46,565 nucleotides of DNA from a virus. Positions 744 to 45,441 of this stretch are shown here, one piece after another. Below the pieces are notes generated by a model that was not told the DNA's origin, ran no database searches, and saw nothing but the letters and a program-made list of their open reading frames with translations. Location of the stretch: the IMG/VR virus record IMGVR_UViG_3300023174_000265, positions 1 through 46,565 of that record; one strand, 5' to 3'. Made by a program: the position numbers and the translations under genes. Position 1 is the stretch's first letter. Each line of letters begins with the position of its first letter.

Positions 744-808
744 CCACACAGGGGCAGGGGTAAGACGCCAGAACAGCGTACAGGGGATATCCATATTTCT
801 GGAAAAAT

Positions 809-838
809 GCGTCTAGTCTGATACTCGCCAACTAGGCT
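809..838 (+). promoter_or_regulatory. Promoter, leaderless type
   Basis: GCGTCT, 18 bp starting AGTCTGATAC, then TAGGCT. It matches the promoter family of this genome. The ATG at 845 lies 6 nt after the -10 box, so the transcript should be leaderless. Confidence 0.6.
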
Positions 839-844
839 ACAAGT

Positions 845-1144
845 ATGACCACACACACATATACAACTACATACAACCAAGAACGAGGTGCTTACCGTAA
901 GGGGGCACTGATACAAGCCAGAGTTATCCCAGAGCGTATGAGCGCCTATGGAATTCGTACCGAGTGGGCAGTGTCGCTTACCGTAGCCTCACCAACAGGT
1001 GACAGTTCAGACTTCATTGACCTACCTATTCCTTGTCTCTCGCTTTCTCAAGCGTGTGATATCGCAGATGACTACAACAGTGGATTAGCGCCAGAGTTGG
1101 TAGGACACTTTCACGCTTTATACAAAGAGCGAGGTTCTTTGTGA
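845..1144 (+). CDS. Hypothetical protein
   Basis: A 99-residue protein of unknown function. Its start is set by the promoter just upstream: the -10 box ends at 838 and no ribosome-binding site fits between, so translation probably begins at the 5' end of the mRNA. The TGA overlaps the GTG start of the next gene. First of four chained genes 845-2273. Confidence 0.7.
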   Translation: MTTHTYTTTYNQERGAYRKGALIQARVIPERMSAYGIRTEWAVSLTVASPTGDSSDFIDLPIPCLSLSQACDIADDYNSGLAPELVGHFHALYKERGSL

Positions 1145-1677
1145 CAGTCGCAAAGAGCGCACGGGTGTACTCGGGTAACCTACTCATACTTGAGAACGCA
1201 GTTCGTGTCGCAGGTATGACGAACGATATAAGTAGAATTGACCTAGCGTTGAGAGGCTTTCTCCCAGAGAAAGTAAAGAGGTCTGCCTATCGTAGAGAGT
1301 TAGTCGCAGGTGAGTGGCAAGAGAACACCTCAACCTCACACGCAATATCTGACAGTCGGCGCTTGTATCCAGATGAGTGGAGTGATGACCTAGAGGTATT
1401 CACTTCCAGATACGAAACCAGACTTTCATACATAATCGGCAGGTGCTACGGGTTCACCTTTGCTAACAACACAGACACACACAACTCATACAGCAGTGAG
1501 GTTCTCTCACTGCTAGTGTCCTCACTCAAGACACAGCCAGAAGAAATACATAGTTCTTTCGGTCTCGGTGTTGTTACGGGTAGAGATGACAAGAGCAAGA
1601 GAAACGAATACCAGAAGCAAGAGAGACTAGATACCCTTGTGTCTATCCACCACCCAGTGATGTCTAACTTTGAGTAA
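1141..1677 (+). CDS. Hypothetical protein
   Basis: A 178-residue soluble protein, not recognised. It starts with GTG overlapping the upstream stop (GTGA) and ends overlapping the TTG start of the next gene. It is the largest member of this operon; basic patches could contact nucleic acid, but no domain is visible. Confidence 0.65.
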   Translation: MTVAKSARVYSGNLLILENAVRVAGMTNDISRIDLALRGFLPEKVKRSAYRRELVAGEWQENTSTSHAISDSRRLYPDEWSDDLEVFTSRYETRLSYIIGRCYGFTFANNTDTHNSYSSEVLSLLVSSLKTQPEEIHSSFGLGVVTGRDDKSKRNEYQKQERLDTLVSIHHPVMSNFE

Positions 1678-2080
1678 TCTTCGCACTTGTTCTGGGTGTG
1701 GAGAGCAGTGTGCTTGTACACAGCAGGAAAACTACCCAGATAATGGGTGGGTCTTACCATTTGATACCTTCGGTTACTACGGGGGCTTTGATGACAATGT
1801 TGATGTCCTACTCACTGATGTCCCGAGTAGGCAATGGGTACTGTGTCACGACTGTGTAGTCAAGTTTCTTACTTTATTCCCTCGCTTACGGGATACTTTC
1901 AGCAAGGGTCTACACCTATGCGAGAGCGAGACACCTTGTTGCGAGTGGGCGTGGCGTGGGACTGACAAGTTCGGCGAGTATGAAACCAATGAGAGTGGTG
2001 AACTTGTACCTGCCAGTGGAGCGCACTACCAAGTAGTCGAGAACGGCTTATGGGTAGACGCCAAACAAAACAATGAGTGA
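1670..2080 (+). CDS. Hypothetical Cys-rich protein, probable zinc ribbon
   Basis: A 136-residue protein with Cys pairs CSGC plus CAC near the N-terminus and CHDC near residue 63, then further cysteines (LCESETPCC). The spacing suggests a structural zinc site. It starts with TTG, overlapping the previous gene by 8 nt, and overlaps the next by 8 nt. Function unknown. Confidence 0.65.
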   Translation: MSNLRTCSGCGEQCACTQQENYPDNGWVLPFDTFGYYGGFDDNVDVLLTDVPSRQWVLCHDCVVKFLTLFPRLRDTFSKGLHLCESETPCCEWAWRGTDKFGEYETNESGELVPASGAHYQVVENGLWVDAKQNNE

Positions 2081-2273
2081 CCACTACGTAAAGCCGTATC
2101 TCTACGACCAGACAGATGATGTCATAGCCAGATACGAAGCGATAGCCCTTGAGCGAATAGCGCAGTCAGCGTCAGCAGAGGGTCAGAGCCACTTTGATTA
2201 TATCCAGACTGCCTTTGACCTTATTCACGCAGTTGCTAACGAAGTGTGGCTTAGCGAGATTACTTACGAATAG
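2073..2273 (+). CDS. Hypothetical protein
   Basis: A 66-residue acidic, probably helical protein, last gene of the left rightward operon. The ATG overlaps the upstream TGA. Its TAG stop lies inside a copy of the 13-bp repeat (GAATAGATAACT), a recurrent arrangement in this window. Confidence 0.65.
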   Translation: MSDHYVKPYLYDQTDDVIARYEAIALERIAQSASAEGQSHFDYIQTAFDLIHAVANEVWLSEITYE

Positions 2274-2326
2274 ATAACTTTTTCGAGAAAGCCGGGGCTC
2301 CTCACCACCTAGCCACAGGTGTATCC

Positions 2327-2345
2327 AGTTATCTATTAGATAACT
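2327..2345. promoter_or_regulatory. 19-bp perfect palindrome from two overlapping repeat copies
   Basis: AGTTATCTATTAGATAACT is a perfect inverted repeat around one central base. It equals two head-to-head copies of the 13-bp repeat merged, and sits exactly at the convergent junction between the rightward operon ending at 2273 and the leftward one ending at 2336, overlapping the last codons and stop of the latter. Confidence 0.7.
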
Positions 2346-2542
2346 ATTTGTCCGACACTCACTGTGTAAATAATTCCACCCTGAACAATGTAGGCGTATT
2401 CCTTTTCAGTTCCTTGATACTCAATGAAGGTTGCCTCAACTGTTCCAGTGGTGTGTCGTTTTCCTTTTCCGTTATCAGTTATGTATCCGAACGATACGGG
2501 TATCTGGACAGTCGTTCCCTGTTTTATTTCTGTTCTGTTCAT
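2336..2542 (-). CDS. Hypothetical protein
   Basis: A 68-residue, mostly beta-strand protein, not recognised. Last gene of the leftward operon starting at promoter 3241-3270; its ATG overlaps the stop of the gene upstream (ATGA). The 3' end runs into the palindromic repeat. Confidence 0.65.
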   Translation of the reverse strand: MNRTEIKQGTTVQIPVSFGYITDNGKGKRHTTGTVEATFIEYQGTEKEYAYIVQGGIIYTVSVGQIVI

Positions 2543-2742
2543 ATGTATCTCGGCTCACCGTGTGGTGGGCAGTCCTCGTACGGGTTCTCATTACCCTCGT
2601 TGTCCTCGCACGAACACCAACTGAATAACGCTACTTGCGTTTCGTGAGTGAGTTCAGCCATATCGCTCTGTGATGGTGAGCCACCGAGTTGGTCAATGAC
2701 AACACTCCAGAAGTTCACGAATAGTTGTTCTTGTGTGTTCAT
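2539..2742 (-). CDS. Hypothetical protein, Cys-containing
   Basis: A 67-residue acidic protein with a C-terminal cluster of cysteines (WCSCE, EDCPP) that might bind metal. It overlaps the following gene by 4 nt and is preceded by a repeat copy at 2744-2756. Function unknown. Confidence 0.65.
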   Translation of the reverse strand: MNTQEQLFVNFWSVVIDQLGGSPSQSDMAELTHETQVALFSWCSCEDNEGNENPYEDCPPHGEPRYI

Positions 2743-2752
2743 TAGTTATCTA

Positions 2753-3007
2753 TTAGTTGTTCGTTCGGCTTGAGATACAACTTGAGCAATACGCCTCAAT
2801 AGTGTTTCCTTGCTCTGCGTCCACGAACTCCCACTTGCCATAGAAACGCTCGCTGGTCATATCTGCCATTAGCGAGTAGATGTCTGTGTAGCAATACACA
2901 CCAGAATTATCACAAGTGAAACAGTACGCTCGCACTACTTTTTCATCTCCCGACAATTCAGTTCTGAGGCTTCTGCCGTTCGCTCTTGCTCTGGTTGGGT
3001 TGTTCAT
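2753..3007 (-). CDS. Hypothetical protein, probable zinc-binding
   Basis: An 84-residue protein with a CFTC pair in the middle and CSSC near the C-terminus, a plausible four-cysteine zinc site. It abuts the upstream gene (TAATG-type junction at 3007). Its last codons overlap the repeat copy 2744-2756. Function unknown. Confidence 0.65.
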   Translation of the reverse strand: MNNPTRARANGRSLRTELSGDEKVVRAYCFTCDNSGVYCYTDIYSLMADMTSERFYGKWEFVDAEQGNTIEAYCSSCISSRTNN

Positions 3008-3210
3008 TACTCAACCACCACCCACGCCATTGCCACTCGCAATAGGTTGTCGTAGTCACCCGACATTGACTGCGTTCTGTATTCAGCAATTTCATCTGCC
3101 GATACTTTTGCTCGCCTAAGTGCTTTGGTTACTGTTCCCATAATCGCAAAGGCGTTCCCGTCCTCTCCAGTGAGTTGGACTGTAATCTCTGGATATTTCG
3201 TTTCACTCAT
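3007..3210 (-). CDS. Small conserved phage-type hypothetical protein
   Basis: A 67-residue protein with the pattern LTGEDGNAFAIMGTVTKALRRA and a C-terminal SGDYDNLLRVAMAWV. From memory, similar small proteins recur in many phages and integrated elements without a known role. It is first in the leftward operon, downstream of promoter 3241-3270, with an AAGGGGAAAA ribosome-binding site. Confidence 0.75.
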   Translation of the reverse strand: MSETKYPEITVQLTGEDGNAFAIMGTVTKALRRAKVSADEIAEYRTQSMSGDYDNLLRVAMAWVVVE

Positions 3211-18553: not shown

Positions 18554-18898
18554 TGCTCTCGGGTTATCTACTACTAATAGATAACTATTCCACCAATACA
18601 AATAAAACAAAATCTCGACGCAAGCGCAAAGGAGCCCCGCTGACAAAGTTTGACGCGGGGCTTCAACCTGCTCGCACAAACGAGCGTTCGCAGGCACAAC
18701 ACGGGGGGCTTCCGATAAGTTCGCCCGACCCCACGACTTTCGTGACCTCTTTCATTTCAGTCTTTATTATTTGACGGTGGTGGAAGACCCTCTCCCTAAT
18801 AGATAACTATGGGTGTGGCTAGTCTGTACCTTTGCTGATACGCTGACATCACTCCCGTTGTACCACCACAACTAGACCCAATGGGAGTGGAGAAAAAA
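18554..18898. other. Intergenic module
   Basis: Repeat copy (18574-18586), GC-rich hairpin AGCCCCGC...GCGGGGCTT, GC-rich element (18700-18718), TTGACGGTGGTGG repeat (18771), repeat copy (18796-18808) and promoter (18815-18844). Open frames here only read through the repeats. Confidence 0.6.
18815..18844 (+). promoter_or_regulatory. Promoter
   Basis: GTGGCT, AGTCTGTACCTTTGCTGA (18 bp), TACGCT. A repeat copy ends 6 bp upstream of the -35 box. Confidence 0.7.
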
Positions 18899-29351: not shown

Positions 29352-29726
29352 TTAGATATCTTCATTTTTTCTAATTATTTGATGGACCCGCTGCCGGCTC
29401 AAATCAAATACATCTGCGATTTCCCTCAGGGACTTACCGGCTGCACGCATTTGATGAATTTCTGAATTTCTGCTTATGTCTGTGGCAGGACCAGGCTTGA
29501 ATGGGCCCCACTGCCAATTTGGAATTTCTTGAATTTTTCTCACCCGGTCATCGGACAATTGGTTTTTACGATAACGCTGTCTTATGTAACCAACCCATGC
29601 ACCTAAAGAAATATGATTTTCTTGAATTTTTTCAGTGTGCGCAGCGGGAATCTGGGAATTGCCTTCTCGCTCAATGTATTGGGTGAGAGCTTGGATATAA
29701 GTACTAAAGCGTGTGTTGTTGTCCAT
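29352..29726 (-). CDS. Helicase-associated domain plus HTH regulator
   Basis: About 124 residues. The N-terminal part (LGAWVGYIRQRYRKNQLSDDRVRKIQEIPNWQW) is a helicase-associated (HA) domain of the kind repeated in actinobacterial proteins. The C-terminal part (IHQMRAAGKSLREIADVFDLSRQRVHQII) is a sigma-region-4-like helix-turn-helix. Start taken at 29726; the frame runs on to 29810 but would overlap promoter 29804-29832. A 14-bp palindrome lies 16 bp upstream (29742-29755). Confidence 0.7.
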   Translation of the reverse strand: MDNNTRFSTYIQALTQYIEREGNSQIPAAHTEKIQENHISLGAWVGYIRQRYRKNQLSDDRVRKIQEIPNWQWGPFKPGPATDISRNSEIHQMRAAGKSLREIADVFDLSRQRVHQIIRKNEDI

Positions 29727-29741
29727 ACCGATAACAATAGA

Positions 29742-29755
29742 CGAACAAGTGTTCG
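29742..29755. promoter_or_regulatory. 14-bp palindrome, candidate operator
   Basis: CGAACAAGTGTTCG: two CGAACA half-sites facing each other, between the divergent genes 29352-29726 and 29910-30146. Possible autoregulatory site of the HTH protein. Confidence 0.4.
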
Positions 29756-29803
29756 CCCTTGACACTTCCCCCATAAGAGGTACAAATATATTTATTTTAT
29801 AGG

Positions 29804-29832
29804 TTGACATTTAAAAGCTCAGTAGATAGAGT
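29804..29832 (+). promoter_or_regulatory. Promoter
   Basis: TTGACA, 17 bp, TAGAGT. A classical strong promoter unlike the AGTCTGTACC family; faces the gene at 29910. Confidence 0.6.
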
Positions 29833-30471: not shown

Positions 30472-30927
30472 ATGGAAGAAAAAAACAATAAATATCAGTC
30501 AGTATCCGGCAGCGATGCATTTGAAAAAATGCTAAAAAAAGAACAAATGAAGCCAGAGCTCATAGAAGAGGTGATGGAGAAAATCGCCGAAACCTCTGAA
30601 GAGGTCCATAACATTATCTTCGTTTTTACAGATAATGATGTGGCCGTCACTGGCGTGCATGTTCCTAGGTCGGCGCTTAATGGCGAAGACGGCCCGGTCA
30701 TATTTAAGAATTCTAAAGAAAATTCATTAACTGCAGCATTCTCGCGGGAGTACATTGAAGAGAGAATCCTCAGGGCTGATGAAGTGGGAGAGAGAGCGGG
30801 GCTCGGCAGCGTTATCGCCGACCAGGTCTGGATTTCCGAGTTGGAAAAAATAGTTGAAGAGGTTAGAATGAAAATCGAAACGACCCCTCCCAGGAGCTGG
30901 GACGAACTACTAGACGAGGGTAAATAA
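30472..30927 (+). CDS. Hypothetical protein
   Basis: A 151-residue acidic protein, helical with a short beta region (NIIFVFTDNDVAVTGVHVPRSAL). Not recognised. No clear ribosome-binding site. Its TAA shares a base with the ATG of the next gene. Confidence 0.65.
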   Translation: MEEKNNKYQSVSGSDAFEKMLKKEQMKPELIEEVMEKIAETSEEVHNIIFVFTDNDVAVTGVHVPRSALNGEDGPVIFKNSKENSLTAAFSREYIEERILRADEVGERAGLGSVIADQVWISELEKIVEEVRMKIETTPPRSWDELLDEGK

Positions 30928-31619
30928 TGTTGACGGTGGTGGATGAGCTCGGCAATGACGGACCACGTTGGTGGCAAGAGGCTGCCAAGGTTGTGGTTTG
31001 TGAGATTTTTAACGATTACTCGCTCGAGAAGATTATCCATCACCTGGAGTGTCTCGAAGAGGAATGGCAAGAAATGCGAAAAAATGAAGAAAAAGTTATC
31101 TATGCCGCCGGCCAGGTATCTCGAGAATCTCAGAAATATCTGTCGTCCCATTTTGATGGGATGCTCAATAACTTTAAGTTCTTTACTTCTGATGGTCCTT
31201 ATTGGGTTGATGAATGGCGTCAGCTCGGATGTCTAGCTGCGGCTGCGGGAATCAAAAATGGCAATTTTTTGGCAATATCTGAAGACCTGGCTGCCGGCCG
31301 CGCGCATCCAGAAAATGAGAAAAAATCAAGGACCTCCGCGTCAGCTGAATTCGATAGCTGGATGGTGCGCGACTCAATCCTCGAGACATTAATCAAAAAA
31401 CAAAAAGATTACGGTCATGAGAACATCTCAAGGTTTGGTCGATATGGACTACTCGTCCGCACGCACGACAAGCTAGCTCGATTAATTAATCTACAAAAAA
31501 CAAAAAACAATCCAGAGAACGAATCGATAACAGACACGTATACTGATATCGTCGGCTACTCCGCAATCGGCATGATGCTCGAGCGCGGATGGTTCGGGTT
31601 ACCGCTAATCGATTACTAG
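30927..31619 (+). CDS. MazG-like nucleotide pyrophosphohydrolase domain protein (DUF1599 type)
   Basis: 230 residues. The C-terminal part (about 150-228) has KKQKDYGHENISRFGRYGLLVRTHDKLARLINL then ESITDTYTDIVGYSAIGMML: the DUF1599 / all-alpha NTP pyrophosphohydrolase pattern, with the E/D residues that bind Mg. Such phage enzymes cleanse or tune nucleotide pools. The N-terminal 150 residues are unrecognised. The gene's first codons (MLTVVDELG) are a copy of the TTGACGG element. Confidence 0.7.
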   Translation: MLTVVDELGNDGPRWWQEAAKVVVCEIFNDYSLEKIIHHLECLEEEWQEMRKNEEKVIYAAGQVSRESQKYLSSHFDGMLNNFKFFTSDGPYWVDEWRQLGCLAAAAGIKNGNFLAISEDLAAGRAHPENEKKSRTSASAEFDSWMVRDSILETLIKKQKDYGHENISRFGRYGLLVRTHDKLARLINLQKTKNNPENESITDTYTDIVGYSAIGMMLERGWFGLPLIDY

Positions 31620-31648
31620 ACATACAAAAAGAAAGACATACTAGACAC

Positions 31649-32041
31649 ATGAATTATCATGACGGTGGTGGAAGACGCGCATTACAGCTCGGCTGTTTGT
31701 TGGCTGTTGAAGTTATTGGCTCATCTTCTATATATTCTATTTTGGAAAATCATTCTTTTGCTGATGGTCTCTGGTGGTCATTCATGACTTTCACTACTGT
31801 TGGCTATGGTGACCAGTTCCCATCAACGATGATTGGGCGGATGGCTGGGATGGTTCTTGTCGCAACAGCTGTATTCGTGATACTGCCAACGATAACTGCA
31901 GTAATTGCAACGAGAATAATTGGAGATAAAGATAAGTTTACGCACGAGGAACAAGAAGAAATAAAAGACTCGCTGCGTCGAATAGATTCAAAAATATCCA
32001 GATATCAAGCAATCAGGAGTAAGGAAGATACATGGGCATAG
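31649..32041 (+). CDS. Two-TM potassium channel (KcsA-like pore)
   Basis: 130 residues: TM1 (about 13-32), pore helix and selectivity filter LWWSFMTFTTVGYGDQFP with TTVGYGD at 49-55, TM2 (about 62-88), then a charged cytoplasmic tail that looks helical (EEIKDSLRRIDSKISRY). The filter is canonical for K+ channels and the size is that of a minimal tetrameric channel. Start at 31649, because upstream codons overlap the MazG-like gene. Codons 4-9 (HDGGGR) lie in a TGACGGTGGTGGA element. It overlaps the next gene by 10 nt. Confidence 0.85.
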   Translation: MNYHDGGGRRALQLGCLLAVEVIGSSSIYSILENHSFADGLWWSFMTFTTVGYGDQFPSTMIGRMAGMVLVATAVFVILPTITAVIATRIIGDKDKFTHEEQEEIKDSLRRIDSKISRYQAIRSKEDTWA

Positions 32042-32229
32042 TTCTTGGAACAATCATCTATAAAGCCGGCAAACGCCGCGCCAATAAACAAAGAGACAAA
32101 GAAGAGAAAGCTCAAAGAGAGTACGACAACTGGGGCAGCCATGATTCCACCAGTGCAATGCATCAGTACTACAATGGGCACGACGGCCAGGACACGTCAG
32201 CCATGGAGGAGTATTATGCAAATCGATAA
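32032..32229 (+). CDS. Hypothetical hydrophilic protein
   Basis: 65 residues: a short hydrophobic start (MGIVLGTIIYKAGKR), then a charged, Gln/Tyr-rich disordered tail. Overlaps the channel gene and the following gene, so it is translationally coupled to both; a channel accessory role is possible but unproven. Confidence 0.65.
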   Translation: MGIVLGTIIYKAGKRRANKQRDKEEKAQREYDNWGSHDSTSAMHQYYNGHDGQDTSAMEEYYANR

Positions 32230-32470
32230 CCCTGAAGAAGAAGACGCCATCGAGCAGCGCGCAGAATTCGAGAAAAATGCGATTCTCGACCAGGAGGACC
32301 AGATGCAATACAAAATGGAGAATTCTGTAGAAAACAAGAAACCTGATTACCTGGGAGAGCTGGTCACCAAGATTGGCGCATCCGGTGCTGCAGCTAACAA
32401 AATATTCGAAAATTTAGGAATTGCTTACAATTGCATTCAGCTACCTGAGGAGGAAGACAATGAGTTTTAA
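32216..32470 (+). CDS. Hypothetical acidic protein
   Basis: 84 residues, MQIDNPEEEDAIEQRAEFEKN..., acidic and helical. CATGGAGGAGTATT provides the ribosome-binding site for the ATG at 32216, overlapping the previous stop. The end overlaps the next gene. Confidence 0.65.
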   Translation: MQIDNPEEEDAIEQRAEFEKNAILDQEDQMQYKMENSVENKKPDYLGELVTKIGASGAAANKIFENLGIAYNCIQLPEEEDNEF

Positions 32471-32861
32471 ACTTCTTTTTTTACATATTTTGTTCCTGGC
32501 CATCTGGTCCCTCGACTCCAGGTTTCTGGAAAAGAAGAGAATCTGGCGGCGGTACCAAAGAAGTGTGAATAATCAGGAGCGCGCGCATCGACATGAGCTT
32601 GCGCGCATCAACTCTACGTACGTAGACCTGACACACCACGTGACGCTGCGGCCGGCGAAGAGTGCAGAAAAAGAGAATTTCTATGACGTCCAAAACGAGC
32701 TCTGGCCGGATATGGCAAAAATGAAAGAAAACAGGAAAAAATGGGCATACGATGCCGGCCCAAAGTTCGGCTACACCAAGGCTAAGCGCGACGCGTTCTA
32801 CACGCAGATGCGCATCAGCCGCTGGGGCTGGGGCTCAAGCGAGGCCGGCAAGTTCAAGTAA
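32460..32861 (+). CDS. Membrane-anchored hypothetical protein
   Basis: 133 residues: an N-terminal hydrophobic helix (FKLLFLHILFLAIWSL) and a basic soluble domain ending in YAFYTQ-like segments and RWGWGSS. CTGAGGAGGAAGACA precedes the ATG at 32460. Last gene of the channel cluster. Confidence 0.7.
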   Translation: MSFKLLFLHILFLAIWSLDSRFLEKKRIWRRYQRSVNNQERAHRHELARINSTYVDLTHHVTLRPAKSAEKENFYDVQNELWPDMAKMKENRKKWAYDAGPKFGYTKAKRDAFYTQMRISRWGWGSSEAGKFK

Positions 32862-33071
32862 AAGGTAGCCCGGGGGAATCAACACCACCTACCACAACGG
32901 AGACTCAACCCCGGGCCGTGCTTCTTCAGCGATTGGGGAACTGTGCCGAAGGAAGCCCCGCTACCATAGCACTTTCTTTTATTGAAAAGTGCAAGTATTT
33001 GTTTTTATTTAATCGCCGGCTCGAGCTCCGGAAAAAAAATAAAATTTTTCCAGAAAAACCCCTCTACCCGG

Positions 33072-33101
33072 TTGACGGTGGTGGATGAACCCTGCTATGG
33101 T
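33072..33101 (+). promoter_or_regulatory. Promoter in a TTGACGG element
   Basis: TTGACG, 18 bp GTGGTGGATGAACCCTGC, TATGGT. No gene starts nearby; transcription from about 33108 would run into the hairpin at 33250. Confidence 0.5.
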
Positions 33102-33107
33102 GACAAC

Positions 33108-33278
33108 CCATCTAGCCCAATAGGTCTAGGTATCAATGTGACGTCACAATCGCTGAAATCTACACGCTTAAAAACACTTTCCAGAAACGGAAGGTCTAGC
33201 TGAGGACGCCCGCGATTAGTTGGTACAAAATCAAAGGTTTTCCCCCAGACCCCCTTTCCAAAGGGGGCTTCTTCTTTA
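33108..33278 (+). ncRNA. Candidate small RNA
   Basis: About 170 nt between promoter 33072-33101 and the CCCCCTTT/AAAGGGGG hairpin with a CTTCTTCTTT tail. The only reading frame is about 20 codons from a GTG at 33140. Supported only by the signals at the two ends. Confidence 0.3.
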
Positions 33279-33402
33279 ACTTACTACGTTCTTTCTTTAC
33301 GTAGTTAGTAATGTTCTAGTTAACGAAATTAATCCTTTCGTAAGGCTGAAAAAACAAAAACCGTTTTTACCATTTTTGGTACTTACTTTTTTATTTTCAC
33401 TA

Positions 33403-33431
33403 TTGACGGTGGCGGAAGAGCCCGATAGTAT
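33403..33431 (+). promoter_or_regulatory. Promoter in a TTGACGG element, leaderless type
   Basis: TTGACG, 17 bp GTGGCGGAAGAGCCCGA, TAGTAT, then 7 nt to the ATG at 33439. Confidence 0.6.
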
Positions 33432-33438
33432 TAACCCC

Positions 33439-33807
33439 ATGGGGAAGCGCGGTCAATCCGAACACAATAAGTCAAAGACAGCTGCAGCTAAAGAAATACC
33501 AAAAGCACAAAAACAAGAGATATTTGATTTCTGGAAACTTACGTTCAATAAGTCTCGAGTAAGCATGGACGTCAACAGGGAGAACGCACTGGGGTGGGCC
33601 ATCTATACCTACGGCCTAGAAGCCTGTAGGCATGCCATCCTGGGTTGCGCGTCGTCAGCCTTCCATATGGGCCAGAACAAAGCCGGCAAGACATACAACG
33701 GGATAGACTTAATCTTCAGAGACGCTGAACATGTCGAGATGTTCCTAGAGCGCTACGACAAGTCGATAGATACAAGCGCGCGAGATGAATGGATTAATAA
33801 TGGATAA
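33439..33807 (+). CDS. Replication-associated protein, probable
   Basis: 122 residues. The region FDFWKLTFNKSR...RENALGWAIYTYGLEACRHAILGCASSAFHMGQNKAGKTYNGIDLIFRDAEHVEMFLERY matches the C-terminal domain often found in phage replication-initiator or HTH proteins, here without the usual N-terminal HTH. Start at 33439, placed by the promoter; an upstream in-frame start would precede the -10 box. Overlaps the next gene, itself helicase-loader-like. Confidence 0.6.
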   Translation: MGKRGQSEHNKSKTAAAKEIPKAQKQEIFDFWKLTFNKSRVSMDVNRENALGWAIYTYGLEACRHAILGCASSAFHMGQNKAGKTYNGIDLIFRDAEHVEMFLERYDKSIDTSARDEWINNG

Positions 33808-34282
33808 AGCTGAATTAGCCAACCTAGTTGACCAGGTCTTCGCCACGTACAACCAAGAGCTTCCATTAGATGACAAGAGCCGCGTACAGCTCATCTATAA
33901 GTCCTGGTACGACTTACTCCATGACCTGAGCTACGCAGACTGCAAGGAGACCTTCCTTATGCTGGCTACTACTTCCACCTTTATGCCTAAGGCAGGGGAG
34001 ATAAGACGTTCCACAATTAATAGGCATACAAAAATAGGGGAAACAGATGAACCCATTATTGCTTGGGGTAAATTCCAACGGATAATGGAAGACGCTAACG
34101 CAGGTGTGGTGAACCAGCAGGAGCTCCAAGAGGCTCTCATACTCACAGTGCGCAAGCTAGGGTCTGCCGGCGCAGGGATGCATACCAATGGGGACCGAGA
34201 ACACTTCATCCGGGTATATGAAAAGACTGTGATAGAAATAGAAGGAGAGAAATATAAAGTCCCTCTCCGAATTGAGGAATAA
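33800..34282 (+). CDS. Putative replicative helicase loader (G39P-like)
   Basis: 160 residues. SWYDLLHDLSYADCKETFLMLATTSTFMPKAGEIRRSTINR resembles the N-terminal helical domain of phage helicase loaders such as SPP1 G39P; the C-terminal half is helical and unrecognised. Overlaps the preceding gene by 8 nt, supporting a joint role in replication. Remote similarity judged by eye. Confidence 0.5.
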   Translation: MDKAELANLVDQVFATYNQELPLDDKSRVQLIYKSWYDLLHDLSYADCKETFLMLATTSTFMPKAGEIRRSTINRHTKIGETDEPIIAWGKFQRIMEDANAGVVNQQELQEALILTVRKLGSAGAGMHTNGDREHFIRVYEKTVIEIEGEKYKVPLRIEE

Positions 34283-34432
34283 ATGTTTGGCTTTTCTATT
34301 TGGCAATTATTGTTGCTTATTCTTTCTTCTTCTTTTATAGGGTCAGTTGCATACTCCCATAAAAGTTTCCTACATAAAGTGACCCTAATTGGGTTGGTAG
34401 TAGTTGCAATGAGGACATTCATCCTGAACTAA
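34283..34432 (+). CDS. Small membrane protein
   Basis: 49 residues with two hydrophobic segments (WQLLLLILSSSFIGSVAY and VTLIGLVVVAM). It starts directly at the stop of the previous gene (TAAATG), with GAGGAAT as ribosome-binding site. Function unknown. Confidence 0.55.
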   Translation: MFGFSIWQLLLLILSSSFIGSVAYSHKSFLHKVTLIGLVVVAMRTFILN

Positions 34433-35020: not shown

Positions 35021-35368
35021 TCATCCTCCCCACATCTGTGCCAGTGTAGGTCTAGTAGGTTTTATCTTCCTTCTTCTTTGTTCTGCCGCTAGTTGCCGAC
35101 TCGTCAACCCGGCCCAGACACCGTGCATATCGGCAGGTGGAAACTCCAGTGCGTAATTGAGACACTCCCTTCGAACAGGACATGACTTACAGATGGCTCT
35201 TGCTTGTGCAATGTAGGTAATGTCCTTATGTTGTTTGGGAAACATTAGTTCTGTCTTTCCTTTACATCCTGCTAGTTTGAACCAGTCTTTTCTTTCTATA
35301 TACAAAGACGCAACAGGTGTGGAATCTTTTTTATCCAATTCTTTTTGGGTAATTTTATTACTAGTCAC
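35021..35368 (-). CDS. WhiB-family transcription factor
   Basis: About 115 residues. Four cysteines C35, C60-x2-C63 and C69 (GCKG ... CKSCPVRREC) bind a 4Fe-4S cluster, followed by GVWAGLTSRQ and a basic RRRKIKP tail: all the WhiB features. WhiB proteins work with the primary sigma factor of actinobacteria and occur in their phages, where some block host WhiB2. GTG start at 35368 (AGGAG 10 nt upstream) or TTG at 35374. Confidence 0.9.
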   Translation of the reverse strand: MTSNKITQKELDKKDSTPVASLYIERKDWFKLAGCKGKTELMFPKQHKDITYIAQARAICKSCPVRRECLNYALEFPPADMHGVWAGLTSRQLAAEQRRRKIKPTRPTLAQMWGG

Positions 35369-35477
35369 TTGCAAAAGTCTCCTAAAAAGAGAGCATTCTT
35401 ACTCCCTATAGGTAATTATTACTATGTAATTACTGAAACTCAGTGTCAAGTGGTTTTAGGTATTTGGTAGGTGTGTT

Positions 35478-35986: not shown

Positions 35987-36607
35987 CTATTTGGTTTTTT
36001 CTTGTCCCTGTACCAGTGTGTGGTACGGAGCACCCGTATATGGGTCGCACTTTGCTGCGATGGACATAGCCTTTATTGCTATCTTTCTTGCAATAGCTAT
36101 TGTTAGCTTTCCTTTTGGCTGTATGGCAGAGAGGGCCCCTATGGCGTATTGAGCCCCAGTGCCCACAGCAAAGACTCCGCTGGAATCAGAAATCCATGAG
36201 TAATCACCGTCAATGATGTATATCGCTCCATTGATAGCCATTACCACCGTAGATGAGTGCTCGGCTATATGAGTCTTGGAGCCATTCTCTGGTAATGCGT
36301 AGCCGTGTGATTCAAAGCATTCCCTTAAACTTGGGATAAATTTAGCTGTAACAAAGTGGTCAAGCTTCTTCCCTCGTAAAGTTGGTGTTGGATTCGGCGG
36401 CGTGAACGCATGATGCAGGATGTTTATTGCTCTTAGGTCGCCGGCAGCTCCGAGGATGAATCTGCCGTTTAGACCGATTTTCCCATTTGATTCTCTGAGG
36501 CTTGCTATCTGCGAAATGAGACCTTCATCGTCGTCCAGTGTTGATATGCGCGAGTCTGCGGTAATAACGCAAAACCCATCACCCTGGATGCCGATAATCG
36601 TTGTCAC
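35987..36607 (-). CDS. Proteasome beta / HslV-like Ntn-hydrolase
   Basis: 206 residues. After the initiator Met it starts TTIIGIQGDGFCVITADSR: a threonine nucleophile, the Asp of ADSR at the usual position 17, then GKIGLNGRFILGAAGDLRA. This is the N-terminal nucleophile fold of 20S proteasome beta or HslV subunits. No ATPase partner is nearby. GTG start overlaps the upstream stop (TAGTG). The 3' end meets an isolated repeat-like sequence (35981-35993). Confidence 0.75.
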   Translation of the reverse strand: MTTIIGIQGDGFCVITADSRISTLDDDEGLISQIASLRESNGKIGLNGRFILGAAGDLRAINILHHAFTPPNPTPTLRGKKLDHFVTAKFIPSLRECFESHGYALPENGSKTHIAEHSSTVVMAINGAIYIIDGDYSWISDSSGVFAVGTGAQYAIGALSAIQPKGKLTIAIARKIAIKAMSIAAKCDPYTGAPYHTLVQGQEKTK

Positions 36608-40148: not shown

Positions 40149-40402
40149 CTTTTGCTCTTTTTCTTCTTTTCATAATGGCTCGGCTTGAATAAATCGACCC
40201 ACTCATGTTCCCCAATGTGATTGTCCAGCTTTTGCGATATGGTATCAACGTCATCATCAATGCCTCTTATGTCTTCGCGTATGGCGTTTAGCGTCTCTTT
40301 AACAACCCCATGGTCTTTTATGTTTTCTCGTCGACCTTTTTCAACAAGTAAAGCGAGCACACTGAATGCTCCAGTTACTGCGGCTGCCCAGACAATCTCC
40401 AT
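40145..40402 (-). CDS. Holin-like protein, one transmembrane helix
   Basis: 85 residues: an N-terminal membrane helix (VWAAAVTGAFSVLALLV), a coiled coil (VKETLNAIREDIRGIDDDVDTISQKLDNHI), and a Lys-rich tail (YEKKKKSKR). This is the layout of DUF2746-type holin-like proteins beside actinophage endolysins. Directly downstream of the endolysin gene. Confidence 0.65.
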   Translation of the reverse strand: MEIVWAAAVTGAFSVLALLVEKGRRENIKDHGVVKETLNAIREDIRGIDDDVDTISQKLDNHIGEHEWVDLFKPSHYEKKKKSKR

Positions 40403-41151
40403 TAGAGGCCAAGCAATTCTTTTACTTTTGGACCAACCACAGAGTCTGCTGCAAGCTTGTTCGCAACCTTAAATGCTTTTATTGCTGCGTCTGTTGCTGC
40501 GTCTTTCTGACCGTTGATTTCACCCTTATAGAACCCCTTGGCCTTCAGAGCCTCTTGTAGGGCTTTGTGGTCGCTTGCTGCTGGTACCGCACTTGCAGCA
40601 GCCACCGGTGCGGCACCACCAATGAATGCCATAACGGCTGGAGTTGGCTTGTCGCCTGTTACTAGACGAATATGCCATGGCTCGCTTGGAACAACTTCCC
40701 AACTGAAACCAAAATCTTTAACATTTGCGATAAGCCAATTCAATCTCTTCGGCTCTGATGCACTAGCAATATCAATGGCCAAACCGAGATTGTGGTTCGA
40801 TTTACCCGGTGTCGCCAGCATCGCCATGCCTTTTTTCAGGTACCAGGTTTTTCCTTCGAACGTCTTCGTGCTTGTTCCTGTAACTGGTTCCAAAACGTAG
40901 CGCTGTTTGAAGCCCGCCAGTTGGCTCTCGTATGTGCGATATAGGTCGCCGGAACTCGTGGGTTTAAGCTCGACTCCGTCTGCTTTGGCTTTTGCGACCA
41001 TTGCGTTCCATGCGTCTGCGGCTCTGTGGTGAAGTTTTCCTCCAGTTGGGATTGCTCTGAGTAATGATTCTGGCAGTTTTCCAGGTTCAACCCCTTTCAG
41101 GTCAGCAGGCATAATCATTGGAACGATGTAGTCCCAGGCAACTTTACTCAT
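40402..41151 (-). CDS. Endolysin: VanY-type D,D/L,D-peptidase with C-terminal peptidoglycan-binding domain
   Basis: 249 residues. Zinc ligands of the M15 peptidase fold: SNHNLGLAIDIA (S-x-H-x3-G-x-A-x-D) and EPWHIRL. The C-terminal HKALQEALKAKGFYKGEINGQKDAATDAAIKAFKVANKL is a PG_binding_1 domain. It cleaves peptide cross-links of the host wall at lysis. An Ala/Pro linker joins the two parts. GGAG precedes the ATG. Confidence 0.9.
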   Translation of the reverse strand: MSKVAWDYIVPMIMPADLKGVEPGKLPESLLRAIPTGGKLHHRAADAWNAMVAKAKADGVELKPTSSGDLYRTYESQLAGFKQRYVLEPVTGTSTKTFEGKTWYLKKGMAMLATPGKSNHNLGLAIDIASASEPKRLNWLIANVKDFGFSWEVVPSEPWHIRLVTGDKPTPAVMAFIGGAAPVAAASAVPAASDHKALQEALKAKGFYKGEINGQKDAATDAAIKAFKVANKLAADSVVGPKVKELLGL

Positions 41152-41235: not shown

Positions 41236-44200
41236 CTAATCAGAGTCGGGTTCTTTCATGTGCAAGTACATCGATGCAGTAAACGCCAAGAGAGTTCCCC
41301 AAAGGGCAATCTTTTGTGTAAATCCAGAAAGAGTGAAATACATGACCGTGGCACCGGCAAGTGTGAACCCAGATGCCATAACTCCGTAAACAAACTTTCT
41401 TGTAAAGTTCTTCCAGTCCATAACTCTCACTCCATCCTCATATTTGTAAATAGATATTCGCTTAATCCAATCTGGGCCTTCGCCTTCGATTGCTCCACCC
41501 TCTTCTGTCTCTTCTTCTTCTTTCCGAGCCGCGACATCTTGTCGTGGTGTAGAAGGAGCAGAAGGTCCAGGGGTTGGTATTCCACCAGCAGCAGCAGCAA
41601 GAGCCACCGTACTGGTTACCAAGTTTACCGCAATTACACTTCGTCTCGTACCAACATCTATAGAGGAACCTAATGCGGTATACGTATCGAACACGCCGGC
41701 GAACACATTTATCTCTTCTTCAAATGATTCCTTAACATCGGTTGGTGCATCGGTGAGTGCTTCTGAAATTGCAGCACCAACCTCTTCTGAAATCTCAGCA
41801 ACAACGATTGCGCTAAACACTGCAGACGCTTGTTCGCCGTCAATGCTTTCAAGAACCTTGGCGCTTGTTGCGAGTTCGGTTGCTTGGCCCGACTCGATTC
41901 CGCCCTCTTGTTCAATTACTAATGTCACAACTTGTGCAACTTGCTCACCCGTAATCGTGTCTGATTCAAGGACATCCACTATGACTCCGACTGATTCGGC
42001 ATTCAGTTCGCCATCTAATACAGCGGTAAAAGTTTCAATCAAAACCTCAGTGCTTACAGATTCGTCAAAAACAGCACCAAGGACAGAGCTCAACAAATCT
42101 GCAGTGAGTCCGTCTTTCAAAACATCAACGATGAGGTCAATGGTTTCTGCATCGGAGAGGTCACCGTCAAAAACATTGTCAAATACTGCTTTTGCTTCTG
42201 ACGCGCTCAGGTTCGTTTCAAGCAAGTCTCTAAGAACAGCCTTGGTATCCTGAACGGAAATGTCTTCGTCAAACACTGCACCCATTACCTTTGAAATATC
42301 CGCACCACTTGCTGGACCATCAAAGATTGAACTGAGTGCGGAAACCATTGCTTCAGGAGATGTTGTTTCCGAGAATGCGGCATCAAGAACTTTGTCCAAC
42401 TCTTTGTCGCTAAGGTCGGCACCAAGCATCGTTGTTAGTGCTTCGGTGAAAACTTCACTAGAGACATCTTCGGAGAACACTGCATCAAGAACCTTGGTGA
42501 ACTCTTTATCGCTTAGGTCTGCCCCCAAGAATGAATTAATCACAGCGCCAACATCTGCACCCGGTTCTTCAAGCGAGCCAAGGGTTGCGTCTACTACTGC
42601 GTCAAACTGTTTTGGTGTTAAGTCGGCATCAAGGAGTCCATCAAGGACGGCAGTTATTTCTTCTGTGGATGCGTCTGGGGTGAATGCGGTATCCAAAATA
42701 CCCGCAAGGTCACCCGTGGATATTGCTTCTCCCGCCTCTGGGAGGGTAACCTCACCTGGTGGAATTATTACTACTACCGTTTCGGGTTCTGTTCCAACTG
42801 GTGGAATTACTATTCCTGGCAGTGCGGTTTCTGGTTCTGTTCCTACGGGAAGCGTCACTGTTGTGGATTCTGTTTCAGGCTCTGGCAATTGCGGCAGTGG
42901 CACTGTTGTATCGTCTGGGGGAGTCACGACGACAGGAGAGACGCTCGTACTGGTCGTCCCAGTATCAACAGGTGGAATAACAACAACAACTGGCGGTATA
43001 TAAACGGTAGTTGTAGTTGTAGTTGTAGTTGGAACAGTAGTGGTAGTCGTAGTACTGGTAGTACTGGTAGTACTGGTAGTACTGGTAGTACTGGTAGTAG
43101 TAGTAGTAGTAGAAGAAGTAGTTGTAGTGGTTGTGGTAATTGTGTTCCCAGACTCCACATATCCAGAGCCCGAGAAATTAGTTGTATTGTTCGCAGTATT
43201 ACCAAATGTGTTTCCACTGGCTGTAGAGAAAGAGTTTGCACTTACTCCGTTGTATACCGAAGAGCCGTTATTCCAATTGTTTGCAAACTGAATAGCGGTG
43301 GTGTTGCCATTGAATGTATTACCTGAAACCGTTTGGTTGCCAACGCCAACCGCCCAACCCGTCGGAATCCATGAAGAGAAATACACGCCTGTACCGTTTG
43401 AAGTAAATGTTGAGTTAGTTACCTGCTGACGGTTAAGACCGCCTAGTTCTGCACCAACCTGTGTGTTGCTGATAAATTGGGTGTTGTTTATCTTGAAGAA
43501 TCTTTCTCCAGATATTCCGTAAGTATTATTAGAAAAAACCGAATCATAAACGTATGTGCGGTTTGTGTAATCGGAATCCGTTTGGCTCAAAGCCGATGGC
43601 GTCGAACCATAGTCTCCAGCAATACCGACATATAGATAATCAAATGTTGTATCCGTGAGGGTGGAGACAGAACCTCCTCCATTATTGAACACGGCAGAGC
43701 CTGCTGTCATTCCCGTGAAGCGAACATCGGTTGCAGAGAAAGTGCCTGCACCGTTATTCACAAGACCGCCGTTTGTGGCTTGCCCTTTTTTAAGTGTCAT
43801 GTCAGAAATCGTCAGCGACTTGCCAGACGAGATATTGAATGGACGATACAAATTATTTCCGTCAATAATGGTGGAAGTTAAACCAGCACCAGTGATTGTC
43901 AAGTTGTCCGAAATTGCAGGCAGAGCAGAAGTAAGCGTGATTGTTCCAGTGTTTCCTGAAGCAAAAGTAATGGTGTTAATAGTGGCTGAAGCGTTCGCCG
44001 TAGTGATAGCCCAACGCAAAGAGCCCGAGCCCGAAGTATCTAAAAGATTTGTAACAATGACAGATGTTGGGGCAGGAACCGTGATGGACGCAGCCGAGTT
44101 TGCCGTTAGTGACCCAATTGAGTTTGTTTTAGTTACGCGGACTCGTATTTGTTTCGCAACATCATCTGAACCAACCGCATATGTTGAAGATGTTGCGCCA

Positions 44201-45441
44201 GATATATTTGTCCAAGTACACGAAGAAGGAGTACAGGATTGCCACTGATAGGTTGTCGCAGTTACAGCAGACCCACCGTCACCCCAAGTCCCATCAACTG
44301 CGGTCAGAGTTTCCCCGTAGGCAACAGTTCCAGACATTGATGTTCCACCAGATGTTGTCGGAGCCGTAGACCCTGCAAGGATAGTAAACGACTGGCTTAC
44401 CGTGGCTGCTGCCACATATGAGTTATTAGAAGAACTATTTGCGGAGATGGTGCAAGTTCCTGTTTGACTAGCCAACACTGTCACCGTTGCAGTTGAAGTT
44501 CCACCGCTGTCTGTTGATGAACCAACGGTGCACTTGCCTGTAGTGCTAGATGTAAAAGTAACCGACAACCCAGAAGTAGCAGTGGCTGAGACAGTAAATG
44601 TTTGGTTTGATGAAGATTTAACTATGTCGGCAGGCTGAGCAAAAGTAATACTGTTTGCGCTGGCTACAGATATTGCTGAGTCAATATACATTGACGCACC
44701 AAGGGCTTGACCGCCAGTTGCATCATAAGAACCATTCACAAACCTGAATCTGTAATAACCAGTAGATGGAACTATGCCACTAGACGTAACCCATGATTGG
44801 TTTTGCCCACGCCCGTATGAAACTAAAGTTGAAGTAGCACTAGAGCCATAGTCGTATGAGTTCCCACTCGCAGAAACCTTAACTAAGTATCCGTATGCTT
44901 CGTAGTCGTCACCACCACCAGCAGCAGCCCAGTCAAAAGAAATTGATTGGTTTGCCGTAGCAGGAAACGGCTCGGTCCATATTTCTGGTCCAAACGCCGA
45001 ACCGTATGTTCCATGATTATTACAAGTATTGGCATAGGAAATAGTGCCAGAAGAGAAGAGACGAATTACTCCACTACGTCCACCATATGCCTGTCCTGTA
45101 GATGTGGAGTAAGACAGGTACTGGGTGGTCGCTTCTTGGCCTTCATACAACTGCTGTTCTCGCGTGTAGTTCTTATCGGTTACATAAGAATATGAATCGC
45201 CAGAGGTAGCGTCGGTGCCAGTCATTGTGTATGGACCAATGCCCTGCTTGCCTAGAACCGCACATTGGGTTCGGCTTGCCAACGAACCTAGGGTTACCTT
45301 TGCTGCCGCAGTTGACTCAAAAACAGGTGACAATGCTTGGGCTGGAGCAGAAAAGCCAAAAATGCTTAAAAGTAAGAAAAAAACCGAAGGCACAGCCATG
45401 ATGGCTGCTGGTTTATTAATCCGGCGACGCCGTACGAACAT
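41236..45441 (-). CDS. Giant secreted, membrane-anchored surface protein
   Basis: 1401 residues. Signal peptide (1-36, FVRRRRINKPAAIMAVPSV...APAQA); a jelly-roll-like domain (about 60-250); two Ig-like modules (about 255-450); a right-handed beta-helix starting VTNLLDTSGSGSLRWAI (about 455-760); a Thr/Ser-Thr linker (770-830); Pro/Val-rich linker; about 350 residues of helical repeats (LSDKEFTKVLDAVFSEDVSSEVF type); a hydrophobic helix near 1285; and two C-terminal transmembrane helices. This is a host-type surface adhesin or stalk design; in a phage it could alter the infected cell surface. Long simple repeats lie at 43005-43140. Confidence 0.75.
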   Translation of the reverse strand: MFVRRRRINKPAAIMAVPSVFFLLLSIFGFSAPAQALSPVFESTAAAKVTLGSLASRTQCAVLGKQGIGPYTMTGTDATSGDSYSYVTDKNYTREQQLYEGQEATTQYLSYSTSTGQAYGGRSGVIRLFSSGTISYANTCNNHGTYGSAFGPEIWTEPFPATANQSISFDWAAAGGGDDYEAYGYLVKVSASGNSYDYGSSATSTLVSYGRGQNQSWVTSSGIVPSTGYYRFRFVNGSYDATGGQALGASMYIDSAISVASANSITFAQPADIVKSSSNQTFTVSATATSGLSVTFTSSTTGKCTVGSSTDSGGTSTATVTVLASQTGTCTISANSSSNNSYVAAATVSQSFTILAGSTAPTTSGGTSMSGTVAYGETLTAVDGTWGDGGSAVTATTYQWQSCTPSSCTWTNISGATSSTYAVGSDDVAKQIRVRVTKTNSIGSLTANSAASITVPAPTSVIVTNLLDTSGSGSLRWAITTANASATINTITFASGNTGTITLTSALPAISDNLTITGAGLTSTIIDGNNLYRPFNISSGKSLTISDMTLKKGQATNGGLVNNGAGTFSATDVRFTGMTAGSAVFNNGGGSVSTLTDTTFDYLYVGIAGDYGSTPSALSQTDSDYTNRTYVYDSVFSNNTYGISGERFFKINNTQFISNTQVGAELGGLNRQQVTNSTFTSNGTGVYFSSWIPTGWAVGVGNQTVSGNTFNGNTTAIQFANNWNNGSSVYNGVSANSFSTASGNTFGNTANNTTNFSGSGYVESGNTITTTTTTTSSTTTTTTSTTSTTSTTSTTSTTTTTTVPTTTTTTTTVYIPPVVVVIPPVDTGTTSTSVSPVVVTPPDDTTVPLPQLPEPETESTTVTLPVGTEPETALPGIVIPPVGTEPETVVVIIPPGEVTLPEAGEAISTGDLAGILDTAFTPDASTEEITAVLDGLLDADLTPKQFDAVVDATLGSLEEPGADVGAVINSFLGADLSDKEFTKVLDAVFSEDVSSEVFTEALTTMLGADLSDKELDKVLDAAFSETTSPEAMVSALSSIFDGPASGADISKVMGAVFDEDISVQDTKAVLRDLLETNLSASEAKAVFDNVFDGDLSDAETIDLIVDVLKDGLTADLLSSVLGAVFDESVSTEVLIETFTAVLDGELNAESVGVIVDVLESDTITGEQVAQVVTLVIEQEGGIESGQATELATSAKVLESIDGEQASAVFSAIVVAEISEEVGAAISEALTDAPTDVKESFEEEINVFAGVFDTYTALGSSIDVGTRRSVIAVNLVTSTVALAAAAGGIPTPGPSAPSTPRQDVAARKEEEETEEGGAIEGEGPDWIKRISIYKYEDGVRVMDWKNFTRKFVYGVMASGFTLAGATVMYFTLSGFTQKIALWGTLLAFTASMYLHMKEPDSD

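Follow-up and report, generated by a model that had tools for sequence, protein, structure and literature searches.

Introduction

K+ channels encoded by phages are already known as a kind. Greiner et al. 2018 (PMC6163359) described them in the phages Myrna, Phabba, ME3, ventosus and BillNye and in Vibrio and Lactobacillus phages, and judged the diversity of these channels to be evidence against a common origin. The PHROGs family phrog_14690, annotated as 'cAMP-dependent Kef-type K+ transporter', includes proteins of Wakanda, BillNye, ME3, ventosus, LAh_6/8/9, Myrna and Phabba. Literature searches on phage superinfection together with K+ channels, and on phage channels described later, returned nothing beyond PMC6163359 other than a brief mention in PMC7650704, and no infection role for any phage K+ channel is known in the literature searched.

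Two further systems serve for comparison. KcsA of Streptomyces lividans is gated by protonation of H25, E118 and E120 (PMC7337057). The Kcv-type channels of algal viruses, of phycodnavirus origin, consist of the pore alone and end at the second membrane helix. The present analysis adds three points to what was known, namely the grouping of such channels in a motif-defined clade, the location of the gene in an optional cassette for which the empty site was found, and the finding that its small neighbours are not obligate subunits.

Results

Phage genome and host

The virus record analysed here (the window) is 46,565 bases long and runs colinearly with the opening 46 kb of contig G001 (170,425 bases), on which genes for terminase, portal and tail fibre are found. 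A megablast search of phage records with the window gave no match. Judged from gene content, the channel resides in a genuine tailed-phage genome. The host is probably actinobacterial, because WhiB genes were found in the window, in G001 and in the related contigs L024, L025, L027, L029 and L031; among 14 control genomes, WhiB was matched in Corynebacterium only.

35021–35374, − strand: WhiB transcription factor, host marker (PF02467, 54.9 bits)

The channel gene and its product

31649–32041, + strand: two-transmembrane (2TM) K+ channel subunit, 130 aa (Pfam, PHROG, AlphaFold, Foldseek, pN/pS)
31793–31813, + strand: selectivity filter TTVGYGD, residues 49–55 (sequence; GYGD invariant in 47 relatives)
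31937–31957, + strand: family signature FTHEEQE, residues 97–103, opening the cytoplasmic helix 99–129 (alignment and model)

The open reading frame begins with ATG and ends with a stop codon at 32039–32041. An alternative in-frame ATG lies upstream at 31589; the lengths of the homologues make 31649 the likelier start, and its ribosome-binding site is poor. The product matched Ion_trans_2 with 51.4 bits (cut-off 22.5) and Ion_trans with 26.6 bits in Pfam, and phrog_14690 with 104 bits. The AlphaFold monomer model, computed from a 47-sequence alignment, had a pLDDT of 92 and consists of a helix (residues 6–33), a pore helix (37–48), a second helix (61–91), a break (92–98) and a cytoplasmic helix (99–129). 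A T-x-GYGD filter and pore helix between two membrane helices, as in the Ion_trans_2 pore, are thus present, and the sequence-only reading of this gene as a minimal K+ channel with a full TTVGYGD filter, a pore helix and two transmembrane helices is borne out.

In comparison with two close contigs the frame is open and ungapped with pN/pS of 0.10–0.12, values that indicate strong purifying selection, and the genes around it are likewise constrained (0.03–0.21 where ungapped comparison is possible). A chance open reading frame is excluded. So is a contaminating sequence, a possibility raised earlier, because the channel occurs at the identical place in three separate contigs (the window, the 170-kb G001 and L002) and between the same flanking genes in the more distant phages L025/L026 and L028. 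Its identity as a phage K+ channel gene can be regarded as virtually certain.

Among solved structures, the best Foldseek match was KcsA, full-length KcsA giving a TM score of 0.71 over 127 columns. The likeness is one of fold, as both proteins have a 2TM subunit followed by a cytoplasmic C-terminal helix, and KcsA is actinobacterial, as is the probable host of the window phage. The two differ in that the sequence match reaches only an E value of about 1e-9 and KcsA has no THxEQE junction at the family position. Moreover, the pH-sensor glutamates E118/E120 of KcsA lie at +41 from the filter, whereas the EQE of the window channel lies at +49, past the break at 92–98. Homology of the EQE motif to the KcsA pH sensor was rejected on this spacing, since an offset of about eight residues together with the predicted break makes it a different site. 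Kcv, cited earlier as the well-known viral case, proved less apt as a model. Both are minimal viral K+ pores, but the window channel has the additional cytoplasmic helix 99–129, its fold is nearest to KcsA, Kcv-type viral models gave weak fold matches (E of 0.02 and worse), and its tailed-phage genome is unrelated to the viruses that carry Kcv.

A channel family defined by the THxEQE motif

Plain tblastn retrieved six phage channels, from Streptomyces, Acinetobacter, Pseudomonas, Aeromonas and two Mycobacterium phages, and these share with the window channel a T..EQE motif past the second membrane helix. A wider search gave 66 motif-bearing rows, including the window, some of them supplied by viral contigs and the others by about 30 bacterial genomes. 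The survey of related phages that had been suggested thus places the family with the motif in over 30 viral contigs and, together with the survey of PMC6163359 and the PHROGs family, contradicts the description of such channels as unusual in phages. The motif lies 45 residues past GYGD in 61 of the 66 rows and 44 or 46 residues past it in the remainder, with the near-invariant form [FW]-T-[HND]-x-E-Q-E where the cytoplasmic helix begins, 45 ± 1 residues past the filter; the window channel, with FTHEEQE at +45, agrees with the family pattern [FW][TS][HDN]xEQE at 44–46 past GYGD. This conservation is partly enriched, as the pattern was used as a search criterion, although T..EQE was invariant already in the seven phages found without a pattern search. 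One phage is an exception, with FTHEEQI. In the 47-row alignment, E101 and Q102 are invariant (47/47), and E103 (46/47), T98 (45/47) and K106 (43/47) nearly so, while the hydrophobic positions 105/109/112/116/119 after the junction follow heptad spacing.

In the 65-row tree, a branch with support 100/99 separates the channels that bear the motif from the rest, and this branch persisted when the motif and all columns after it were trimmed from the alignment. The channels of the phages named for phrog_14690 share with the window channel the 2TM architecture, a length of about 118–130 aa, the filter and the motif after the second membrane helix; they differ in sequence (the window channel is 25–34% identical to those aligned with it) and in gene neighbourhood. 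The Ion_trans channels of Firmicutes prophages (Lactobacillus PLE2, JNU_P5, Listeria, Enterococcus) have the pore and filter in common with it, but are about 240–260 aa long, with extra helices and without THxEQE, and form a separate clade (100/99). The motif is missing from the Vibrio and Firmicutes phage channels examined, and because all the others form one clade the doubt of Greiner et al. 2018 about a common origin can be revised in part. The channels of Streptomyces, Mycobacterium, Acinetobacter, Pseudomonas and Aeromonas phages and that of the window thereby fall into one clade with a common cytoplasmic motif open to testing.

Phage and bacterial members are interspersed in the tree, with 10 label changes, at least three of which are forced by well-supported branches, and repeated transfer between phages and bacteria is therefore indicated. 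The clade of the window adjoins actinobacterial genes (95/78). In several mostly uncultured actinobacterial genomes (L105, L107, L108, L109, L117) the family occurs as a chromosomal gene with conserved neighbours.

Gene neighbourhood

30472–30927, + strand: upstream gene with no assigned function (conserved in L024, L025, L027 and L028; pN/pS 0.10–0.12)
30927–31619, + strand: DUF1599, nucleotide-modification-associated, conserved left flank (PF07659, 25.9 bits; kept in the group)
32032–32229, + strand: s1, 65 aa, overlapping the channel end by 10 nt (pN/pS 0.03 against L001; kept in L168)
32216–32470, + strand: s2, 84 aa, acidic (pN/pS 0.06–0.15; kept in L168)
32460–32861, + strand: s3, 133 aa, one N-terminal hydrophobic segment by hydropathy (kept in L168/L220)
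33250–33267, + strand: intrinsic-terminator-like hairpin (7-bp stem, T-rich tail)
33376–33807, + strand: replication-initiation-like gene, conserved right flank, start perhaps at 33409 (phrog_16167, 2.6e-15)
33785–34282, + strand: helicase-loader-like gene (phrog_9804, 4e-12; phrog_2289, 1e-4)

Pfam and PHROG searches with the gene at 30472–30927 matched nothing. In the window group and in L025 and L028 the channel lies between the DUF1599 and replication-initiation genes, and the hairpin at 33250–33267 probably closes the channel unit. The coupling by overlap noted earlier was confirmed for the channel and s1, whose shared 10 nt are listed above. The suggestion that s1–s3 are subunits was not upheld: all three are open in L168, which has no channel at this locus, and they are thus neither channel-dependent nor obligate subunits. 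In addition, s3 occurs without a channel in L220, and s1 and s2 were not found beside the homologous channels of L024–L029; a weak relative of s3 adjoins the L025/L026 channel. A role of s1–s3 in takeover or superinfection exclusion is possible. A conserved small partner gene was also considered and rejected, as the open reading frames of 65–67 aa directly following the channel gene in Wakanda, in ME3 and in the window resemble one another in size only.

The non-coding gap at 33073–33290 contains promoter-like elements (TTGACG, an extended −10 and TATGGT), followed 150 nt on by a strong terminator-like hairpin. From these sequence features a small RNA would be possible; an Rfam search of the window found no RNA family, and the intergenic fold at 33103–33290 was unconvincing (z −1.6).

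An optional cassette beside a directional repeat

31676–32020, + strand: block cleanly missing in two near-identical phages (empty site in L168 and L220)
31660–31675, + strand: repeat copy TGACGGTGGTGGAWGA, overlapping channel codons 4–9, left edge of the cassette (breakpoint with L168/L220)

L168 and L220 are about 88–90% identical to the window on both flanks and lack exactly 31676–32020. In the L168 alignment, window 30906–31675 corresponds to positions 1–768 and 32021–34300 to 768–3016, and L220 aligns likewise. As these contigs measure only 4.0 and 5.8 kb, absence of the channel holds for this locus. The breakpoint at 31675/31676 falls on the last base of a 16-bp repeat copy. Both flanking genes are present at 31 element-bearing loci; the channel lay between them at four of these and elsewhere at one (L027), and 26 showed none. 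The channel gene is an optional accessory cassette, and since most relatives lack it, it is not essential to this phage group. Gain in the lineage of the window and loss in L168/L220 are both compatible with these data.

Synonymous divergence between the window and L002 was 4-fold lower in the channel (5 of 89 sites) than in its neighbours (89 of 398), with a Fisher p of 1e-4 for a comparison made post hoc. The low-divergence stretch, about 31600–31999, coincides with the cassette, as a recent exchange would predict; constraint at the nucleotide level could instead account for it.

The repeat has nine matches in the window against 0.64 expected, with + strand copies at 18772, 22313, 24850, 29313, 30931, 31660, 33073 and 33404. 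It is often found at or near gene starts in the early/replication arm; exact copies in G001 occur only within 16–31 kb. At each of 51 loci with at least two copies, all copies are on one strand. The channel gene of L024 has copies on both sides (3857, 4380); one of the L028 copies is read through at the 3' end. The repeat resembles an operator, a stoperator or a recombination boundary; other large indels between the window and G001 showed no obvious breakpoint on it. A simple promoter is unlikely, because a plausible −10 box at 17–18 nt was seen in only two of six window copies inspected by eye. A protein with a helicase-associated domain and a helix-turn-helix, encoded at 29352–29810 (− strand) and conserved across the phage group, is a candidate binder of the repeat.

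Discussion

Proposed role of the channel

The explanation that best combines these results, to which we give about even credence, is that the gene encodes a K+ channel carried in an optional cassette and provides an accessory K+ conductance during replication; the physiological role taken alone is more tentative. The product of 31649–32041 would be the subunit of a homotetrameric K+ channel, extending from the conserved FTHEEQE junction into a cytoplasmic coiled-coil-like helix, and the ring formed by THxEQE and K106 just below the pore would be the likely site of gating or sensing. Recombination beside the 16-bp repeat would bring about gain or loss of the cassette, which lies in the replication arm of what would be a large actinobacteriophage. 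During infection the channel would be made with the neighbouring replication-region genes, as its gene neighbourhood suggests, and inserted in the host cytoplasmic membrane, where the added K+ conductance would draw the potential across it closer to the K+ equilibrium value. The phage would most likely benefit by controlling K+ and membrane potential in the host during replication of its genome.

Alternative explanations

The channel might instead serve superinfection exclusion or act against competitors, shifting the potential of the infected cell so that later phages fail to inject their DNA. An accessory, patchy, cassette-like gene is what would be expected of a conflict gene, and K+ conductance at DNA entry has precedents in PBCV-1 and T4/T5 (PMC6163359, PMC7650704). 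Equally patchy genes, however, serve other roles as well, and actinobacteria and Sphingomonas carry members of the family as ordinary genes of the chromosome, which leaves this explanation rather unlikely.

We give no greater weight to a counter-defence or ion-homeostasis valve that would offset the depolarisation or K+ loss caused by membrane-acting abortive infection or infection stress; that such a valve opens on an internal signal, for instance acidification through the His/Glu junction, seems similarly doubtful. The near-invariant H99-x-E-Q-E and K106 at the membrane–cytosol junction, and the proton gating of KcsA through residues H25, E118 and E120 (PMC7337057), are in its favour, but the eight-residue offset and the predicted break place the motif at another site than the KcsA sensor. 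A glutathionylspermidine-synthase-like ATP-grasp gene (PF03738) directly adjoins the motif-bearing channel in four phage lineages of the family (L041, L048, L052, L053), with a small lipoprotein-like gene between the two in L048 and a relative of the latter in L052. The valve gains a little from this neighbour; the window phage, however, has no ATP-grasp gene. A search of 33 records found the ATP-grasp family in 10, a Vibrio phage with a motif-less channel being among them, and literature searches on glutathionylspermidine synthase with K+ channels gave nothing relevant.

That the gene is a passenger from the host with no role in infection would agree with its bacterial homologues, with the position of the window clade beside actinobacterial genes and with its absence from most relatives, but is improbable in view of the strong purifying selection and because phages with channels only about 50–60% identical have kept the gene at this locus. 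An entry device as in chlorovirus Kcv (PMC7650704), a virion-borne channel that depolarises the host at DNA injection, is hardly credible for a tailed phage, whose virion has no membrane and whose channel sits with replication genes and not structural genes.

Returning to the accessory conductance, its role becomes directly testable by comparison of near-isogenic phages with and without the channel, and a tractable system for the laboratory is available in Myrna and Phabba with M. smegmatis mc2 155. More speculatively, a single 2TM K+ channel family with its own THxEQE gate might circulate among phages of many bacterial phyla and their hosts as an infection-time membrane-potential switch, and in the window group might be one of several accessory cassettes swapped at a 16-bp directional repeat that doubles as a transcription-control or recombination-boundary site; this is possible, though we would not expect it.

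Other genes in the window

A lysis-type gene, VanY (40402–41151), lies on the opposite strand and away from the channel. The gene at 41236–45441 (− strand) encodes a protein of 1401 aa for which phage records contain hardly any relatives; its residues 1200–1270 alone match an Actinomycetia phage. At 35987–36607 (− strand) there is a partial match to a proteasome subunit (PF00227, 29 bits), which is of interest in an actinobacterial phage.
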